A DNA stretch of 26,258 nucleotides from positions 1 to 26,258 of the IMG/VR virus record IMGVR_UViG_3300033273_000625; one strand, written 5' to 3'. The notes below the pieces were generated by a model. The model searched no databases. It saw nothing but the letters and a program-made list of their open reading frames with translations, and was not told where the DNA came from. Made by a program: the position numbers and the translations under genes. Positions 4,989-17,123 of the stretch are shown in pieces (within the stretch, counting starts at the first letter, position 1; every line of letters starts with the position of its first letter). Source of the stretch: a virus.

Positions 4989-5207
4989 ATGATAGAAAGA
5001 CAAGTCCGTGCCGTGCATGATCATGCTGATACTAAAGAAATTGCCGAGTTGTGCAGCACACTGATCAGACAAAGCCATCATCAACAAAAGCTGTTGCAAC
5101 AAGCAATCACCCGAATCATGGAACTGGAGATCATCGAAGAATGTCGAGACGATAAACCTAAACAACTACCCTGGTGGCGAAATATCCTTCTGCGTTTTAA
5201 GCCTTAA
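4989..5207 (+). CDS. Hypothetical helical protein (72 aa)
   Basis: ATG 4989 is preceded by GGAGG at 4976-4980 with 8-base spacing, one of the better ribosome-binding sites in this part of the window, and this decides the start over in-frame ATGs at 4932 and 4953. The product (MIERQVRAVHDHADTKEIAE and on to WWRNILLRFKP) is one long amphipathic helix with His/Gln-rich heptads, QSHHQQKLLQQAITRIMELEI, and a basic aromatic tail that could contact membrane or nucleic acid. Its 3' end overlaps the convergent sigma-factor gene by 42 bases. Family not recognised. Confidence 0.55.
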   Translation: MIERQVRAVHDHADTKEIAELCSTLIRQSHHQQKLLQQAITRIMELEIIEECRDDKPKQLPWWRNILLRFKP

Positions 5208-6062
5208 TTTACGAAGCGCATGTTCTTTTATTTGGCGGGTGCGTTCACGGCAGATGTTCATTTCTGCGCCAATGTGCGCTAATGCCTCGGTTTTATTGCT
5301 TAAGAAATAACGCTGAATGATTTCATATTCTCGATCATTTAATGTATCTAGCGCATCGTTCAACGCTTGATGATTGGCAGATTTAATCGCCATATGTTCC
5401 GTGTCAGCGTAAGACGAAGGATCAGGGATTTGCTGCAGCAGTGGTGAACCGTCATCGTGGCAAAGCATGTCAAGACTTCGGTGTTGCTTTGCTCTTTCAA
5501 ACCACATCATGACTTCTTCAATAGGTCGTTCGGCTTCTTCACTCATTTCTTGCAGTGTTGGCCTGCGATGAAATTGCTGCTCATAATCATTCATCCATTT
5601 ACAAAGACGATTAATTTTTTCCAGTGTATTTTGCGGTAAACGCACAACACGGGAAGACATGTCAATGGCTCTGGTGATGCTTTGCCTGATCCACCAATAT
5701 GCATAAGTGCTGAATTTATACCCACGAGTTCCATCATATTTCTCGACAGCACGCTGCAAGCCGATACAACCTTCCTGCACAAGATCTGAAAGATCTAATA
5801 TCGTGCCATCAATTCTTGGTGCATATTTACGAGCAACATTAACAACCAGGCGCAGATTTCCATTGATTAGTTTCTCCTTCGCACGACGCCCTGAACGAAC
5901 AACACGTTGTTCTTCTTTCGTCAATGGTTCTTTTTCTAGGTCACGTTCTGCCAAGAGATCTTGCATCGCAAAGATACGACGCGATAGCTGAATTTCTTGC
6001 TCAGCCGTAAGCAGTGGATGTTTGCCGATTTCATTTAGAAATTGTCTGAATGAATCGGCCAT
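5166..6062 (-). CDS. RNA polymerase sigma factor, sigma-70 family (group 2-like)
   Basis: A 298-aa sigma factor. Region 1.2 is residues ~3-35 (FRQFLNEIGKHPLLTAEQEI); region 2 is ~62-137 with NLRLVVNVARKY, DLVQEGCIGLQRAVEKYD and FSTYAYWWIRQSITRAI (regions 2.3-2.4, promoter melting and -10 contact); VRLP and helices of region 3 follow to ~215; region 4 is ~232-290, with a helix-turn-helix ending RERTRQIKEHALRKLR. Domain 1.1 is missing. The pattern and length fit cyanobacterial group 2 (SigB-E like) factors rather than the T4 gp55 late factor. It likely redirects host RNA polymerase to phage promoters. ATG 6062 is needed to keep region 1.2 intact; it has no Shine-Dalgarno sequence and abuts a terminator. 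Confidence 0.93.
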   Translation of the reverse strand: MADSFRQFLNEIGKHPLLTAEQEIQLSRRIFAMQDLLAERDLEKEPLTKEEQRVVRSGRRAKEKLINGNLRLVVNVARKYAPRIDGTILDLSDLVQEGCIGLQRAVEKYDGTRGYKFSTYAYWWIRQSITRAIDMSSRVVRLPQNTLEKINRLCKWMNDYEQQFHRRPTLQEMSEEAERPIEEVMMWFERAKQHRSLDMLCHDDGSPLLQQIPDPSSYADTEHMAIKSANHQALNDALDTLNDREYEIIQRYFLSNKTEALAHIGAEMNICRERTRQIKEHALRKLRLKTQKDISPPG

Positions 6063-6095
6063 AAAAAAAGCTGCTACCGAAAAAGGGTAACAGCT
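6063..6095 (-). terminator. Intrinsic terminator abutting the sigma-factor start codon
   Basis: Read on the minus strand, 6095-6086 pairs with 6069-6078: AGCTG/CAGCT, then a U-G wobble, then a 4-bp TACC/GGTA block, with a 7-base loop, followed by seven T residues (6069-6063) that run straight into the ATG of the sigma gene. It would end transcripts of the recombination operon. The hairpin also lies within possible upstream starts of the sigma gene (ATG at 6104 and 6098 on the minus strand, same frame), so translation through it could open it. Confidence 0.75.
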
Positions 6096-6126
6096 CATGA
6101 TCATAGTGTCTATGAATTGTTGCAGC

Positions 6127-6450
6127 TTAGAACGGCACTTCTGCATCCATCGGGTTGGCTTCACGCGCTGGCAGGGTGAAATCAGTGACATTTACATTGA
6201 GACTTTGTTTTTCAACGCCGTCCTTCATGTAAGTGTTTAGCTTGCCTTGACCCGCAATTGTAATCTTCGCACCTTTGCGGAGATATTCAGCAGCAGTTTG
6301 TGAACGCTTGCCCCATACAACGCAGTTCATCCAAGTCGTTTCATCTTTGCCAGTACGAACAGCAAGGCTGAAGCTTGCGACTTGATTTTGCCCGACGTTT
6401 TTTAGTTCAGGATCTTTGCCGAGGTTGCCGTGTGCAGTGATGTTGAGCAT
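6127..6450 (-). CDS. ssb: Single-stranded DNA-binding protein
   Basis: A 107-aa SSB. MLNITAHGNLGKDPELK is the usual OB-fold opening, VASFSLAVRT and TTWMNCVVWGKRSQTAAEYLRKGAKITIAGQGKL are the conserved central strands, and the protein ends MDAEVPF, a short version of the acidic C-terminal tip that docks partner proteins. There is almost no linker between the fold and the tip, compared with ~170-aa bacterial SSBs. It would coat single-stranded DNA for the ERF annealing protein encoded two genes upstream. Start 6450 is one base after the stop of the HTH gene, implying coupled translation; an upstream in-frame extension to 6531 is unlikely. Confidence 0.93.
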   Translation of the reverse strand: MLNITAHGNLGKDPELKNVGQNQVASFSLAVRTGKDETTWMNCVVWGKRSQTAAEYLRKGAKITIAGQGKLNTYMKDGVEKQSLNVNVTDFTLPAREANPMDAEVPF

Positions 6451-12632: not shown

Positions 12633-12723
12633 TAGAATAACTTCGGTGCATATGTGGTAACTTGCGCCTGGCACATCGGAGTAGTGACCCGATGAAAACC
12701 CCTTTCTTAATCGGGGAAAGGGG
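12633..12723 (+). promoter_or_regulatory. TAGAAT element and structured leader with hairpins
   Basis: A possible -10 TAGAAT stands at 12633-12638. Downstream, CATCGG (12674-12679) pairs with CCGATG (12689-12694) around a loop containing AGTAGTGA, and CCCCTTTC (12699-12706) pairs with GAAAGGGG (12716-12723), followed by CTTT only. The second hairpin could end the rep operon or an RNA starting here. No ORF of note is inside, so a short structured non-coding RNA or attenuated leader is possible. Confidence 0.4.
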
Positions 12724-12786
12724 CTTTGCCAAAATAATTGATTTAAGTGGATTATATTTCTGTAAAAAATTCAGTTAATCCTTTAT

Positions 12787-12861
12787 TTGAAAATTATCTT
12801 CGACAAGATATAATAATTCAGATTCACATCTTTTTTGTGTTTCTTCACTTCGCTTCAGCTT
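12787..12861 (+). promoter_or_regulatory. Sigma-70 promoter and SD-less leader (cassette 1)
   Basis: TTGAAA 12787-12792, 16-bp spacer, perfect TATAAT 12809-12814. The predicted RNA starts near 12821; CACA/TGTG around a T-rich loop (about 12825-12839) can form a small 5' stem. Then TTCTTCACTTCGCTTCAGCTT leads to ATG 12862 without a Shine-Dalgarno sequence, as in the other cassettes of this region. Confidence 0.7.
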
Positions 12862-13035
12862 ATGCATCCCGATCTTAGTGTTAAAGAGTACGGCCTATTG
12901 ATTGATTCAATCGAATGGGAATTGACTTTTTTGCGTGAAGCTGGCTGGGACAATTGTCGGCGCTATTACCGCTTAGTTGACATCCAGCAGCGCATTCAAC
13001 AATTTATCGACCACACATCACCTCTCCGATCATGA
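12862..13035 (+). CDS. Hypothetical protein (57 aa)
   Basis: ATG 12862 (MHPDLSVKEYGLLIDSIEWE) to TGA 13033-13035. Helical, with LTFLREAGWDNCRRYYRLVDIQQRIQQFI. Start placed after the promoter/leader described above; a longer frame from 12835 would begin inside the leader. It overlaps the ASCH-like gene by ATGA, forming a two-gene cassette. Not recognised. Confidence 0.6.
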   Translation: MHPDLSVKEYGLLIDSIEWELTFLREAGWDNCRRYYRLVDIQQRIQQFIDHTSPLRS

Positions 13036-13478
13036 ACACCAGTGCAATTGCAGACTCGGCAATCCTTCGTGCATTGTCCATTAAAACGATCTATGCAGAC
13101 AAAATAAGAGAACGATCCAAACTTTGGGAATTGCGGACTTATTCACCCAACGTTGCCCCAGACGGTTGGATTGCATTGTATGAATCAAGGCCAACTCAAG
13201 CGATTCAAACAATTATTCAGATCGGACATACATTTAAATTAGATCCTGATGATGCTTGGGAACGATATGAGGATCAGCTAGGCATCGAGTTCGAGGATTA
13301 CTTCTCTTATTTTCGGAAGCGTAAATATGCCTTCGGCATGGAGATACAAGATGTTCGATCTTTCGATCCAGTGTCATTGGCAACTTTGCGTCGAGAAAAT
13401 GATTTTGTAGTTCCGCAAATGTGTATGCCACTCAAGTCCATCCATAAGCGCATTCTTGCCGAATGGTTGAGACCATAA
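13032..13478 (+). CDS. ASCH/PUA-like domain protein
   Basis: A 148-aa protein. LSIKTIYADKI (residues 15-25), SKLWELRTY (29-37) and GWIALYESRPTQAI (45-58) are the ordered motifs of ASCH domains: the first strand, the basic E-x-R pocket and the beta strand after the P-x-G-x-W turn. ASCH proteins bind RNA or modified nucleotides; some hydrolyse N4-acetylcytidine. The C-terminal half (~75-148) is helical and aromatic (YFSYFRKRKYAFGMEI) and is less familiar. The immediate leader is CTCCGATC before ATG 13032, an echo of the CCCGATTCA element. Role in the phage is unknown. Confidence 0.7.
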   Translation: MNTSAIADSAILRALSIKTIYADKIRERSKLWELRTYSPNVAPDGWIALYESRPTQAIQTIIQIGHTFKLDPDDAWERYEDQLGIEFEDYFSYFRKRKYAFGMEIQDVRSFDPVSLATLRRENDFVVPQMCMPLKSIHKRILAEWLRP

Positions 13479-13489
13479 AAAACGAGCAT

Positions 13490-13563
13490 TTGACTTCCTC
13501 TTGTTCTCGTATATAGTTCAATTGTCAGCTCACCACTGACACTTACTTCACCCGATTTTTTCA
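13490..13563 (+). promoter_or_regulatory. Promoter, 5' hairpin and CCCGATT leader (cassette 2)
   Basis: TTGACT 13490-13495, 16-bp spacer, TATAGT 13512-13517. TGTCAG (13523-13528) pairs with CTGACA (13536-13541), loop of seven, exactly where the RNA should begin. ACTTACTTCA follows and CCCGATT (13551-13557) stands just before ATG 13564. No Shine-Dalgarno sequence. Confidence 0.7.
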
Positions 13564-14010
13564 ATGACTATTGTTCCAATTTTTGACACAATGTGTAAGT
13601 TGGCTATTGCCGACAACACTTTGCAGCATTATGTCGATGATCTAACTATACATGATCGAGCCCATCTTCAACACATTGACCTCGATTCAACTTGGCTCTG
13701 GATTGTCCATAAAAATGGCACTCACATGGCCCGATGGGATGAAGACAGATATGCCGGTTCTAAAGACTCACATCTGGAGTGTTTGATTCGAGCTGGTCTT
13801 AATGGCAGTTGGCCGAATCACAAGGCATTTCTCATTCACATTGTCCACAGAAATGAGAGTTTGTCACCCGGTGTTTTTGGCACTATTAATAAGGTTTCGC
13901 TCCAGACCTTGCAAACTAAACTGCCAAGGCCGAAGCCTCAGGTTAAATTACCCAAGCTGAACCGACAGCAACAGGTTCTTTCTGCCGCCACTGGTTTTTC
14001 TTATCTGTGA
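13564..14010 (+). CDS. Hypothetical protein (148 aa)
   Basis: ATG 13564 after its own promoter and leader. The product begins MTIVPIFDTMCKLAIADNTL; a central segment with WLWIVHKNGTHMARWDEDRY and NHKAFLIHIVHRNESLSPGVFGTINK looks like a small alpha/beta fold with His and Trp clusters, and the C terminus is Pro/Lys-rich (LPRPKPQVKLPKLNRQQQ). I do not recognise the family. It heads a four-gene coupled cassette (13564-14717). Confidence 0.6.
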   Translation: MTIVPIFDTMCKLAIADNTLQHYVDDLTIHDRAHLQHIDLDSTWLWIVHKNGTHMARWDEDRYAGSKDSHLECLIRAGLNGSWPNHKAFLIHIVHRNESLSPGVFGTINKVSLQTLQTKLPRPKPQVKLPKLNRQQQVLSAATGFSYL

Positions 14011-14012
14011 CC

Positions 14013-14192
14013 ATGTACGAAGTATTTGCCGTTATTACAGACGAGCATGGCTCACGCTATGTGCCGACTGGCTACGGTTCAATGCACCGCACTGTAGCTG
14101 AGAATCTTAGGCGAAAGCTGATGATGACTCAACCAGCCGCTCAATTTTTCATCGAGTACACCCAATCTGAGGATCAATTCAATGCTTACTAA
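14013..14192 (+). CDS. Hypothetical protein (59 aa)
   Basis: ATG 14013 is preferred; a GTG two codons earlier (14007) overlaps the previous stop. MYEVFAVITDEHGSRYVPTG, then SMHRTVAENLRRKLMMTQPAAQFFIEYTQ: a strand-helix-strand miniature protein. Its end overlaps the next gene by 11 bases. Not recognised. Confidence 0.55.
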   Translation: MYEVFAVITDEHGSRYVPTGYGSMHRTVAENLRRKLMMTQPAAQFFIEYTQSEDQFNAY

Positions 14193-14505
14193 ACCGAAAC
14201 TTGAGTGCCTCGGCGCACTTGTCTGGTCATTTGGTGTTGCACATCGCCTTGAAAATGACTGTCAGTTCACGGCTGATGTGACAAATATGGTTCAGTTATT
14301 CCGATCAGGTGATTGGGGTGACTTAGACGAAGAAGATTGGGAATGCAATGTCCAAACTTGCAAGAGCAACACAGGCGGTACTTTGATGGGATGTTACAAG
14401 TCATTCGATGGCACCAGGATTTGGATCATGACAAGCGGCTATGGGCAGCAGCAACTTGGCCGAGATTATTGCTACACAACTGTGTTGTTTCCCGAGGAGT
14501 ACTGA
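14182..14505 (+). CDS. SGDWGD-motif small phage/plasmid protein (107 aa)
   Basis: ATG 14182. Residues 41-54 read RSGDWGDLDEEDWE, and the end is TTVLFPEEY; between them lies a strand pair around GCYKSFDGTRIWIMTSGYG. I know the combination of a GDWGD/EE acidic motif, a 'FDGTR-IWI-T' strand and a TTVL-PEEY end from small proteins spread among phages and plasmids, whose function is not established. It sits in the middle of the coupled cassette, 3' end overlapping the next ATG (TGATG). Confidence 0.6.
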   Translation: MLTKPKLECLGALVWSFGVAHRLENDCQFTADVTNMVQLFRSGDWGDLDEEDWECNVQTCKSNTGGTLMGCYKSFDGTRIWIMTSGYGQQQLGRDYCYTTVLFPEEY

Positions 14506-14717
14506 TGAGCAACAATCCACTTATTAATGCAGGAATCAGACAAGCACTCGGTCAATTGTTTGAAATGGGTGCCGAGCATCATGCATATTATTGGTTGGAT
14601 GAACTCCACCAAGTTGATGGTTATCCAATAGAAGATCGGTGGAATGCAATGACACTGCGGCAAATTCAGTCAGATGTTGCACTTAACGCCGCACAGTTAG
14701 GTGAAATAATACCATAA
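14505..14717 (+). CDS. Hypothetical protein (70 aa)
   Basis: ATG 14505 has the best ribosome-binding site of the cassette: GAGGAG 14494-14499, 5 bases away. MSNNPLINAGIRQALGQLFE, HHAYYWLDELHQVDG, MTLRQIQSDVALNAAQLGEI: helical, acidic. Stop overlaps a possible terminator region at 14744. Not recognised. Confidence 0.6.
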   Translation: MSNNPLINAGIRQALGQLFEMGAEHHAYYWLDELHQVDGYPIEDRWNAMTLRQIQSDVALNAAQLGEIIP

Positions 14718-14743
14718 GAATCGCTCATCTTAAAATAACAACC

Positions 14744-14765
14744 GAGGCTTGACTTTTCAAGCCTC
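14744..14765. promoter_or_regulatory. Nine-base perfect dyad over the -35 of the DUF932 promoter
   Basis: GAGGCTTGA (14744-14752) and TCAAGCCTC (14757-14765) are exact inverted copies with a 4-base loop CTTT. The -35 hexamer TTGACT (14749-14754) lies inside. It may terminate the preceding cassette (the following bases TTAGT are only weakly T-rich) or act as an operator, or both. Confidence 0.55.
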
Positions 14766-14830
14766 TTAGTATATATTAAAAAGGTGGAAATCACTAATCC
14801 ACATTTACATTCACTTCACACCCGATTCAA
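14749..14830 (+). promoter_or_regulatory. Promoter, 5' hairpin and CCCGATTCA leader (cassette 3)
   Basis: TTGACT 14749-14754, 17-bp spacer, TATATT 14772-14777. GTGGA (14784-14788) pairs with TCCAC (14798-14802) at the predicted RNA 5' end. TTCACTTCACA follows, then CCCGATTCA (14821-14829) before ATG 14831. No Shine-Dalgarno sequence. Confidence 0.75.
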
Positions 14831-15835
14831 ATGCCTACCAAGAAAGCCGCTAAAGCCCCTCAAACCACCGGAGTTCTGCTCAATGGCAAGTCCGGTTATC
14901 ACCAGGAACATGAAGTTGTAGACGGCACATTGCCTGCCCGTGAAGCATTCACCCGTGCTAATGCATTATTCACAGTAGACAAAACGCCACTCATCTTCAA
15001 AAATCCCGTCACTGGTGAGATGCAAGACTCGGATCAACGTTGTGCTGTCTATCGGACAGACACAGGTGAACAGCTTGGCACTGTCGGCTTGGGTTATGAA
15101 TGCATCCAAAACGAACAACTGTGTCAGCTTGCCGAGTACCTAAGAGATGATTTGATCATGGACACCGTGATCACTCTCAAAGGTGGAGCTAAGGTCGCCT
15201 TTACTGGCAAAATTGTTGGAACTGATGAGGAGATTGTTGATGGTGATCGAGTTCACCGCAACTTAGTCGGCTATCTAAGTCATGATGGCACTACAGGCTT
15301 CGGCTGCTGCTTCACTGATGTGCGGGTTGTTTGCCAGAACACTCTCGGTTGGGCTCTATCTGGAGCCAAGAAGGATGGCAAAATCAAGCAAATCTCGCAC
15401 ACTAAAGTCGGTGTCAGTATGTATGACAATCTCCTCAAATCTATTGATGTAGCACGTCGGACTTTCAAGGAAGACACCAATGATTATCGTCGGATGCAAG
15501 AGACTCCTATGGAGTTCGAGGCTTACAGGAAATGGCTCACCCATCTCTACAACTGCAAGCCAATTCTGGCAGAGGATGGATCAATGATTGAAGCTGACAT
15601 CGCCCATAACAAGGTCAAGTTCAACCGACTTGCCCATGCTTGGGTTGGAGGCTATGGCACTGGTATCAATGGAGTTAGTGAGACTGCCTGGGGCGCATAC
15701 AATGCAGTCACAGAAGTCGAAACTAGCTTGAGAGATGCTCCAGATAGCCGTAACTTTATGACACCTAATGGTTACTACACCCGCAAGGTTGTGCAGAAAG
15801 CCAAGGATTCAATTCTGGAACTTTGCACTGCATGA
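14831..15835 (+). CDS. DUF932 phage/plasmid-like protein
   Basis: A 334-aa protein of the DUF932 type (phage/plasmid-like protein family). Typical features seen in order: VLLNGKSGYHQEHEVVDG with an opening segment that the family uses (residues ~15-32), VGLGYECIQNEQL (~87-99), KGGAKVAFTGKIVG, VGYLSHDGTTGFGCCFTDVRVVCQNTL (~145-171, the best-conserved block), and a long helical C terminus with HNKVKFNRLAHAWVGGYGTGI. Function in other phages is not established, though nucleic-acid or stress roles have been suggested. It is alone in its cassette, between promoter 3 and a strong terminator. Confidence 0.85.
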   Translation: MPTKKAAKAPQTTGVLLNGKSGYHQEHEVVDGTLPAREAFTRANALFTVDKTPLIFKNPVTGEMQDSDQRCAVYRTDTGEQLGTVGLGYECIQNEQLCQLAEYLRDDLIMDTVITLKGGAKVAFTGKIVGTDEEIVDGDRVHRNLVGYLSHDGTTGFGCCFTDVRVVCQNTLGWALSGAKKDGKIKQISHTKVGVSMYDNLLKSIDVARRTFKEDTNDYRRMQETPMEFEAYRKWLTHLYNCKPILAEDGSMIEADIAHNKVKFNRLAHAWVGGYGTGINGVSETAWGAYNAVTEVETSLRDAPDSRNFMTPNGYYTRKVVQKAKDSILELCTA

Positions 15836-15857
15836 TCCACTACAACCAACAATCCAC

Positions 15858-15885
15858 AAAGGGGTCGATCTGACCCCTTTTTTTT
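15858..15885 (+). terminator. Intrinsic terminator after the DUF932 gene
   Basis: AAAGGGGTC (15858-15866) and GACCCCTTT (15872-15880) form a 9-bp stem with loop GATCT, followed by five further T residues (15881-15885). Strong, plus-strand oriented, 22 bases after the DUF932 stop codon. Confidence 0.9.
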
Positions 15886-15928
15886 GGTCTATATGCCGAT
15901 AACCTTTTTTTTTCATTGGTTTTGCAGC

Positions 15929-16002
15929 ATGTGCTATGCATCATTCAGCAGCTGGATGCAAAAAAAATTAAGTTCGGAAGCTGGGACCCAAGGCCACCAC
16001 TG
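15929..16002 (+). repeat. First copies of two intergenic words duplicated near 17 kb
   Basis: Bases 15929-15949 (word containing GCTATGCATCATTCAGC) recur at 17052-17072 with 20 of 21 matches. Bases 15983-16002 (GGGA..CAAGGCCACCACTG) recur at 16987-17006 with 18 of 20 matches. The two words are in opposite order in the two regions. The ORF 15884-16072 crosses this stretch but begins inside the terminator and is not called. Apart from these words and the cassette 4 promoter, I see nothing in 15886-16197. Confidence 0.6.
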
Positions 16003-16135
16003 GAGTCTTATTGAGGAGCATTCTCAACACCAGACCCAGGTACCCTGTCAGACCTTATTTCACCCAACTTAAGTCAGCAAAAAAATCTTAATCATCGGTG
16101 CATCCGCACGGACTACACGGTTTATCAACTTGCCA

Positions 16136-16197
16136 TATATTAAAAGAGTGGAAGACATCACTTATTCCACACTTCACTTCACTTCTTTCCCGATTCA
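16136..16197 (+). promoter_or_regulatory. Promoter, 5' hairpin and CCCGATTCA leader (cassette 4)
   Basis: TATATT at 16136-16141 with no good -35. GTGGAA (16148-16153) pairs with TTCCAC (16165-16170) at the expected RNA start. ACTTCACTTCACTTC follows, then CCCGATTCA (16189-16197) directly against ATG 16198. No Shine-Dalgarno sequence. The design is the same as cassettes 2 and 3, so an alternative sigma or activator for the -35 is possible. Confidence 0.6.
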
Positions 16198-16410
16198 ATG
16201 GACAGCAAGCAAATCCAATTCTGGATGACTGTCATGATCCGATCTGAGATTCATGAACAGTTAAAGGATATGTCTGAAGCAGATCGTCCGATCAACATCA
16301 ACAACCCTGGTGATGACCCGAACTTTCATGCACTGGTCAATCGCATCAAGCAGGAAATGGAAATCCATCTTGTGAACAGGGTTGACCACTATCTATCCGA
16401 GGGCTTCTGA
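16198..16410 (+). CDS. Hypothetical protein (70 aa)
   Basis: ATG 16198 follows CCCGATTCA directly. Product MDSKQIQFWMTVMIRSEIHE, then a polar loop with PININNPGDDPNFHALVN and a helix IKQEMEIHLVNRVDHYLSEGF. Its stop TGA (16408-16410) lies within the terminator hairpin that ends the cassette. Not recognised. Confidence 0.6.
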   Translation: MDSKQIQFWMTVMIRSEIHEQLKDMSEADRPININNPGDDPNFHALVNRIKQEMEIHLVNRVDHYLSEGF

Positions 16411-16422
16411 GCCCTCTTTTTT
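16399..16422 (+). terminator. Intrinsic terminator spanning the stop codon
   Basis: GAGGGCT (16399-16405) and AGCCCTC (16410-16416), 7 bp with loop TCTG, then TTTTTT (16417-16422). The last codons and stop of the 70-aa gene form one arm and the loop, so the ribosome terminating here would sit on the hairpin and may lower termination. The 16455 leader begins right after the T-run. Confidence 0.85.
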
Positions 16423-16454
16423 CCACTTCAATTCACCACACCACCCGATTCATC
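16423..16454 (+). promoter_or_regulatory. SD-less CCCGATTCA leader without its own promoter
   Basis: CCACTTCAATTCACCACACC precedes CCCGATTCA (16444-16452) and ATG 16455. I find no -35/-10 between this leader and the terminator, so the gene is probably reached by read-through from cassette 4. The leader composition (no G before CCCGATTCA, rich in C, A and T) matches the other cassettes. Confidence 0.5.
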
Positions 16455-16676
16455 ATGCAGATTTACTTCAATCGTCCGTGTGCTTGCCGCCTTTATCAGG
16501 CGCTAGGTCAGATACTTTGGCTCGACTCAGCCACTGGTGATGCCGCAACAGATGAGCAGAAACTCGAAGCTCTTGCACAATTCAAGGCGAACCTGAAAGA
16601 GGAAATTGGAATTGACCGCATCAACATTATGCAAGATGAGGTCTATTGCACACTTGTAAACCCGATGGAGTTCTGA
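16455..16676 (+). CDS. Hypothetical protein (73 aa)
   Basis: ATG 16455 after a CCCGATTCA leader. MQIYFNRPCACRLYQALGQI, then an acidic helix ATDEQKLEALAQFKANLKEE and a strand-like end INIMQDEVYCTLVNPMEF. Three cysteines but no recognised metal motif. Followed three bases after its stop by the next gene. Not recognised. Confidence 0.6.
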   Translation: MQIYFNRPCACRLYQALGQILWLDSATGDAATDEQKLEALAQFKANLKEEIGIDRINIMQDEVYCTLVNPMEF

Positions 16677-16916: not shown

Positions 16917-16945
16917 CCCTGGAGTGAAATCCAGGGATTTTTTTT
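16917..16945 (+). terminator. Intrinsic terminator ending the small-cassette region
   Basis: CCCTGGA (16917-16923) and TCCAGGG (16930-16936), 7 bp with loop GTGAAA, then A and eight T residues (16938-16945). Separates the cassettes from the packaging module, implying that the module starts from its own promoter between here and 17124. Confidence 0.9.
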
Positions 16946-16986
16946 GGCTTTCCACCAGGTCACACAACTGTCCATCATGGACCTTT

Positions 16987-17072
16987 GGGAAGCAAGGCCA
17001 CCACTGCATTCCCAAGCTCGAACATCAATTTTTTCCATATTCAGCTGCTTTATGAGCTATGCATCATTCAGC
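16987..17072 (+). repeat. Second copies of the duplicated intergenic words
   Basis: GGGA..CAAGGCCACCACTG is at 16987-17006 and the GCTATGCATCATTCAGC word at 17052-17072, reverse order relative to 15929-16002. A short palindrome, GTCCATCATGGAC (16970-16982), precedes them. The ATG at 17052 would start a 10-codon peptide (MSYASFSLSE), upstream of the ParB-like gene. Confidence 0.6.
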
Positions 17073-17123
17073 TTGTCAGAATGAAAAAAACAAGTTATCG
17101 TTACTTCAGTAAAACTATTCTGC

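Follow-up and report, generated by a model that had tools for sequence, protein, structure and literature searches.

Why do several genes of one virus carry the same short word immediately before their start codons, in leaders that lack a Shine-Dalgarno (SD) sequence? This question is raised by a 26-kilobase viral contig, IMG/VR record IMGVR_UViG_3300033273_000625, whose positions 1 to 26,258 were all analysed and are called the window below. Computation established the word, its position before start codons and its conservation, and, next to these genes, a structured RNA that carries a sequence complementary to the word. Because this adjacent RNA exposes the complement of the word shared by the start codons, one small RNA probably controls many of the virus's own genes at once. 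We consider it reasonably probable that CCCGAY, the invariant core of the word across related cyanophage contigs, is bound by a small RNA that the phage encodes, that acts in trans, and that likely represses several early genes jointly.

The large terminase of the window is 52% identical to that of Cyanophage S-2L, the closest isolate by terminase, and the host is most likely a picocyanobacterium. The gene content includes a sigma-70 factor, a DUF932 gene, and many small genes of unknown function. The comparison set consisted of ten related cyanophage contigs (DUF932 61–92% identical), cited here by L numbers; close relatives share ~84% DNA identity with the window, and further genomes were added by means of a DUF932 profile.

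Distribution of the Leader Word

In the whole window, the exact word CCCGATTCA was found only at 14821, 16189, and 16444, always on the + strand. Its copies end 1, 0, and 2 nucleotides (nt) before ATG 14831, 16198, and 16455, respectively, and each of these ATGs begins an open frame. The three copies compare with 0.14 expected, and none of 100 shuffles reached three; counted with one mismatch allowed, the word was not enriched in the window. As the original prediction had expected, the word was enriched before ATGs in related phages in a test set beforehand: CCCGAY lay 0–12 nt upstream of 28 of 208 starts (11 gene families, 10 genomes), whereas dinucleotide shuffles gave 1.2 (maximum 5). It was otherwise rare around starts, and its position peaked 4–7 nt before the ATG. 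In close relatives the word is kept while the remaining leader turns over. An invariant CCCGAY, with 5–9 nt from its A to the ATG, is present in all DUF932 leaders compared (window, L004, L006, L016, L025, L026, L292, L293, L295, and L298), and the 5' stem is conserved in these leaders as well, the hairpin sequence differing in most lineages with the pairing retained. CCCGAY was not a start signal in the other terminase relatives, Cyanophage S-2L included. A host origin of the word was considered and rejected, as it occurred at chance level in 8 and 251 host genomes, with matches mostly inside genes and not before them.

A Structured RNA Complementary to the Word

Directly 5' of the phrog_3136 gene (13032), a structured RNA was recognized in the window, L004, L006, L018, L292, L298, L293, and L295. 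Judged from its sequence, the copy at 12645–12731 is a previously undescribed candidate small RNA. It had no Rfam match (for the C4 RNA, no Rfam 15 match at E values up to 5 in the window and 0.5 in L018, L292, L293, and L053) and no matching record in the phage-isolate collection. Upstream lie -10-like sequences of a putative promoter of its own, and the structure is compact and conserved, with fold z scores of -3.6 to -5.2 in six genomes (-4.0 in the window). The RNAs of the window, L004, L006, and L018 fold into a 5' hairpin (H0), a closing stem, and the hairpins H1 and H2; those of L292/L298 into H0, H1, and a terminator-like H2; and those of L293/L295 into H1, a second hairpin, a linker, and a U-run terminator. 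U-run terminators are present in all four of these last genomes. The building of a covariance model was dropped, and the stems were compared by hand instead because the MAFFT alignment set them out of register; H0, P1, H1, and H2 stay fully paired despite changes on both sides (window versus L004, L006, and L018).

The H2 loop of the window contains AATCGGG, which pairs with the word CCCGATT, and the loop AGTCGGG of L018 pairs with CCCGACT. The loop of L292 is of the AGTCGGG type (AGTCGGGA, against the word TCCCGACT at g13564), and the sequences GAGTCGGGA and GATCGGGGAA complement the words TCCCGACT and TTCCCCGAT of their own genomes. In L293/L295, ATCGGGGA(A) faces (T)TCCCCGAT, the pairing segment being the linker and not a hairpin loop. 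Each lineage except L004/L006 thus has 7–9 perfect loop–word pairs. Moreover, position Y of the word covaries with position R of the loop, as T/A in the window, L293, and L295 and as C/G in L018, L292, and L298. Loop-complementary sites of the window are concentrated in leaders (p = 2e-5), and the word-bearing leaders rank among the start regions that score best against the loop.

The sequences also suggest a second contact, between the H1 loop and the loop of the DUF932 5' hairpin (TAGTGA/TCACTA, GTGTGTGA/TCACACAC, and GTGATG/CATCAC). The H1 loops read AGTAGTGA, GTGTGTGA (L292/L298), and GGTGATGA (L293/L295). They are complementary to the DUF932 hairpin loop of the same genome over 6–8 nt in the window, L004, L018, L292, L298, and L295, and over just 4 nt in L293; with foreign loops, the complementarity is mostly 4–5 nt.

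The original prediction had proposed a translation-initiation or RNA-regulator element. The second half is favored over the first because the loop of the syntenic structured RNA complements the word and both change together in most lineages. We hypothesize that a promoter of its own, placed where the early gene cluster begins, would drive the small RNA, and that the second hairpin of this RNA would present RTCGGG in its loop. This loop would pair with CCCGAY 0–12 nt 5' of the separately transcribed starts 13564, 14831 (DUF932), 16198, and 16455, and on the DUF932 messenger RNA (mRNA) the H1 loop may add its contact with the 5'-hairpin loop. Because the paired word sits within the footprint of the 30S subunit, pairing would most likely block initiation, so that expression of the whole gene set would fall jointly. 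The mRNA would owe its stability, and the site its lack of structure, to the 5' hairpin and the G-poor linker; protection of the mRNA by the 5' stem, as first proposed, is plausible.

More distant terminase relatives (for example, L029, L044, L048, L050, and L053) carry CCCCCTAG before the ATG in their leaders. Their clade has a conserved element 5' of a ParB-like gene with the hairpin loop CTAGGGGG; the loop is CCTAGGGGG in L044, where one leader has CCCCCTAGG, and TCTAGGGGG in L053, where a leader has CCCCCTAGA. Loop-complementary sites are enriched in the leaders of L044 (p = 7e-5) and L050 (p ~1e-4). In L044 (4580–5190), L046, L048, and L053, 5' hairpins with GAAG or GGAG loops occur together with CCCCCTAG before the ATG, the layout being shared and the word different.

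Several observations weigh against control by a trans-acting RNA. In L004/L006 the loop GACTCGGGG mismatches CCCGATTC at one position within the paired stretch, and much of this loop is shut in the predicted fold, yet all leaders of these genomes retain CCCGATT. U-G pairs also narrow the loop in the minimum-energy fold of the window. Within the clade, cognate loops are not always the best, as the window loop pairs over 8–10 nt with leaders of L292, L293, and L295, and in L018, L313, and L004 the leaders show only weak enrichment of loop-complementary sites. The RNA lacks a U-run terminator in the window, L004, and L018. The H1 contact is convincing for DUF932 leaders only and stays suggestive because it is not significant for most other genes. 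Several members of the distant clade show no enrichment of loop-complementary sites in their leaders, and the loop there may belong to a cis-acting element or to an RNA derived from the leader, since it lies in the 5' leader of the gene.

Alternative Readings of the Word

The word might instead recruit ribosomes in place of an SD sequence, by binding directly to the ribosome or to an initiation factor, with no small RNA involved. Its spacing is SD-like, only 2 of the 28 word-bearing starts have an SD, and the 16S ribosomal RNA (rRNA) of picocyanobacteria contains an internal AUCGGG (in GCGTAGATATCGGGAAGAACACC). However, this match lies in the rRNA body and not at the 3' end, and the site does not vary, while the word is CCCGAC in half of the lineages and CCCCCTAG in the distant clade; pairing of the word with 16S rRNA was tried and discarded, the sites being internal and constant only. 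The hosts do not use the word, an SD is missing from most starts of these phages in any case, and word-bearing and other starts do not differ significantly in SD use (p = 0.08). Such a role, which also leaves the complementary loop unexplained, seems to us unlikely, albeit worth serious attention. Activation by a small RNA that pairs with the word, stabilizing the mRNA or bringing the ribosome in, is distinctly unlikely. In its favor, word and loop are conserved in leaders without inhibitory structure, and GGAG occurs in or beside the loops (CTGGAGGAGA in L293, GGGAGTCGGG in L292, GGAGTAGTGA in the window and L018). But the same lack of inhibitory structure argues against the usual activation by unfolding, the pairing covers nucleotides within the 30S footprint, and the GG of GGAG sits in the H1 stem in the window and L018. 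These GGAG stretches near the loops leave a slim chance for an SD supplied in trans, in which the loop would dock on CCCGAY of SD-less mRNAs and GGAG would bind the 16S anti-SD, so that ribosomes would be drawn to a private phage gene set.

A marginally slimmer chance is given to the leaders being repeated mainly as recombination modules, that is, as cassette borders, with the word preserved through gene exchange among the copies. In L006 the 16198 gene is absent and its promoter and hairpin run into the 16455 leader, and L007 is without the 16455 gene, both of which suit such borders. The copies nevertheless differ outside the word, which is constant where the flanks have diverged, and CCCGAY persists across 11 unrelated gene families and in genomes with otherwise unalignable leaders. 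That 12645–12731 encodes a small protein or leader peptide and matches the word by chance is next to negligible: short frames exist (28 amino acids in the window, 20–36 in L292 and L293), but the peptides are unrelated (15 amino acids in L004, 7 in L018), whereas paired changes preserve the stems. A conserved small open reading frame in the candidate RNA was rejected because the frames are not conserved. A likeness of CCCGATTCAAATG to the T-arm of transfer RNA was likewise dropped, as no matching 3' arm was found.

Leaders and Neighboring Features

The features of the region are listed in table 1. The repeated layout of promoter, 5' hairpin, and G-poor leader is real, as first described. The three 5' hairpins (13523, 14784, and 16148) start ~5–7 nt 3' of the -10. 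RNA folding of the leaders gave the 5' hairpin as the sole structure and left the word single-stranded, and the 14831 leader alone folded no better than shuffles (z = -0.74). Neither an SD in the leaders of 13564, 14831, 16198, and 16455 nor a promoter for the word-bearing ATG 16455, which a terminator-like hairpin precedes, was found, in agreement with the original prediction. The absence of an SD is unremarkable, as just 40 of 180 other starts of these phages have one by a simple criterion. A design scan over all loci (-10, hairpin, G-poor leader, and ATG) gave 35 sites versus 8–14 in shuffles, so the layout by itself is a modest signal.

Table 1. Features of the leader region in the window
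Feature	Position	Strand	Remarks
-10-like TAGAAT of candidate small RNA	12633..12638	+	TATAAT in L004/L006, TATACT in L018, TACACT in L292
Candidate small RNA	12645..12731	+	H0 12645-12668; closing stem TGGC/GCCA 12669-12672 / 12728-12731; H1; H2
H1 (CATCGG/CCGATG), loop AGTAGTGAC	12674..12694	+	Complements TCACTA of DUF932 mRNA 5'-hairpin loop
H2 (CCCCTTTC/GAAAGGGG), loop 12707-12715 TTAATCGGG	12699..12723	+	Loop is reverse complement of leader word
Sigma-70-like promoter TTGACT-16-TATAGT	13490..13517	+	Promoter-like -35/-10 pair
5' hairpin TGTCAG/CTGACA	13523..13541	+	Fold z -4.1
Word CCCGATT	13551..13557	+	6 nt before ATG 13564
Gene, 148 amino acids, unknown function	13564..14010	+	Leader word kept in L006, L018, L293, L295
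Sigma-70-like promoter TTGACT-17-TATATT	14749..14777	+	-35 inside palindrome 14744-14765
5' hairpin GTGGA/TCCAC, loop AATCACTAA	14784..14802	+	Folding
Word CCCGATTCA	14821..14829	+	Before ATG 14831
DUF932 gene (TIGR03299, phage/plasmid-like)	14831..15835	+	
-10 TATATT	16136..16141	+	Sequence; without good -35
5' hairpin GTGGAA/TTCCAC	16148..16170	+	Folding
Word CCCGATTCA	16189..16197	+	Before ATG 16198
Gene, 70 amino acids	16198..16410	+	Homologues in L004, L007, L026, L292, L295 also with word
Word CCCGATTCA	16444..16452	+	Before ATG 16455; no promoter; 3' of terminator-like hairpin 16399-16416
Gene, 73 amino acids	16455..16676	+	

Two further starts had been assigned to the set, and both are weak members: CCCGAT at 12868 falls after ATG 12862, and the echo before ATG 13032 ('CTCCGATC' at 13023) is a poor match only. 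By eye, the 13032 gene in relatives has a conserved N-terminus, (V/L)FL(D/N), read from a GTG or TTG directly after a promoter of the 12787 type, and because of this the stretch with 'TTCTTCACTTC' (12841) is probably coding, or formerly coding, sequence rather than leader. In relatives, the phrog_3136 gene has an apparent GTG/TTG start with the word after the start codon (L004 4150–4250; L018 3050–3090; L292 960–1010), and an insertion appears to split the start region of this gene in the window (12790–13060).

A perfect 9-base-pair palindrome (GAGGCTTGA/TCAAGCCTC) lies over the -35 of the DUF932 promoter, is kept in L004/L006, and looks like an operator. Cassettes between leaders have been lost singly, namely the 16198 gene in L006 and the 16455 gene in L007 (window 16148–16455; L006 7300–7370; L007 1200–1260). 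A conserved noncoding element occupies 15858–16130 of the window, with a partial second copy at 16917–17110; there are two copies in L016/L018, and it also occurs in L025. It comprises a terminator, a long inverted repeat around a T-run/A-run, a core, AAGGCCACCACTGG (inverted in L025), and then ATCGGTGCATCCGCACGGACTACA just 5' of the 16136 -10, and it could be an origin, a DNA site for regulation, or a further RNA. The sigma-70 factor (5166–6191, - strand) is of the cyanobacterial RpoD type by its closest models and genomes and ~40% identical to host factors; it may read some of the leader promoters.

Comparison with Known Systems

To our knowledge, phage small RNAs have seldom been described outside enterobacteria, and hardly any come from cyanophages. 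In the window, a single RNA seems to direct a regulon of the phage's own early genes via a repeated word that changes together with the loop. Gene timing in an uncultured virus group thereby becomes testable with simple two-plasmid reporters, and seeking the complement of a repeated leader word provides a route to such RNAs from metagenomes alone.

Cyanophage S-2L resembles the window in that several genes have a -10, a 5' hairpin, a C-rich leader, and an ATG, whereas CCCGAY is not enriched at its starts; no matching small RNA was identified there, although no detailed search for one was made. Among its early genes (L091, 26500–30640), the -10 is TTTAAT or TATAGT, and the hairpin lies at the expected 5' end. 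The C4 RNA of phages P1 and P7 represses the antirepressor operon and gives immunity in lysogens. It acts on this one neighboring operon (ant), whereas here one word stands in several separately transcribed leaders. No antirepressor was recognized, and homologues of phrog_3136 were found in only 3 of 400 host-family genomes, all of them remote. C4 is a small phage RNA whose loop sequences base-pair near and at the ribosome binding site of a phage mRNA, preventing its translation (PMC12197685), and the loops of the candidate small RNA likewise complement the start region of phage mRNA. The candidate would probably repress translation in the manner of C4, yet neither C4 nor the sar RNA of P22 is detectably related to it. 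CfrI of cyanophage S-PM2, a long regulatory RNA that is cis-antisense to psbA (PMC12197685), is also a cyanophage regulatory RNA and is unrelated to the candidate in sequence or layout. The sar RNA of P22 impedes initiation by base-pairing with ant mRNA (PMC12197685); it is another small phage RNA that pairs at a start region, but sar has a single target, whereas here one loop would serve many.

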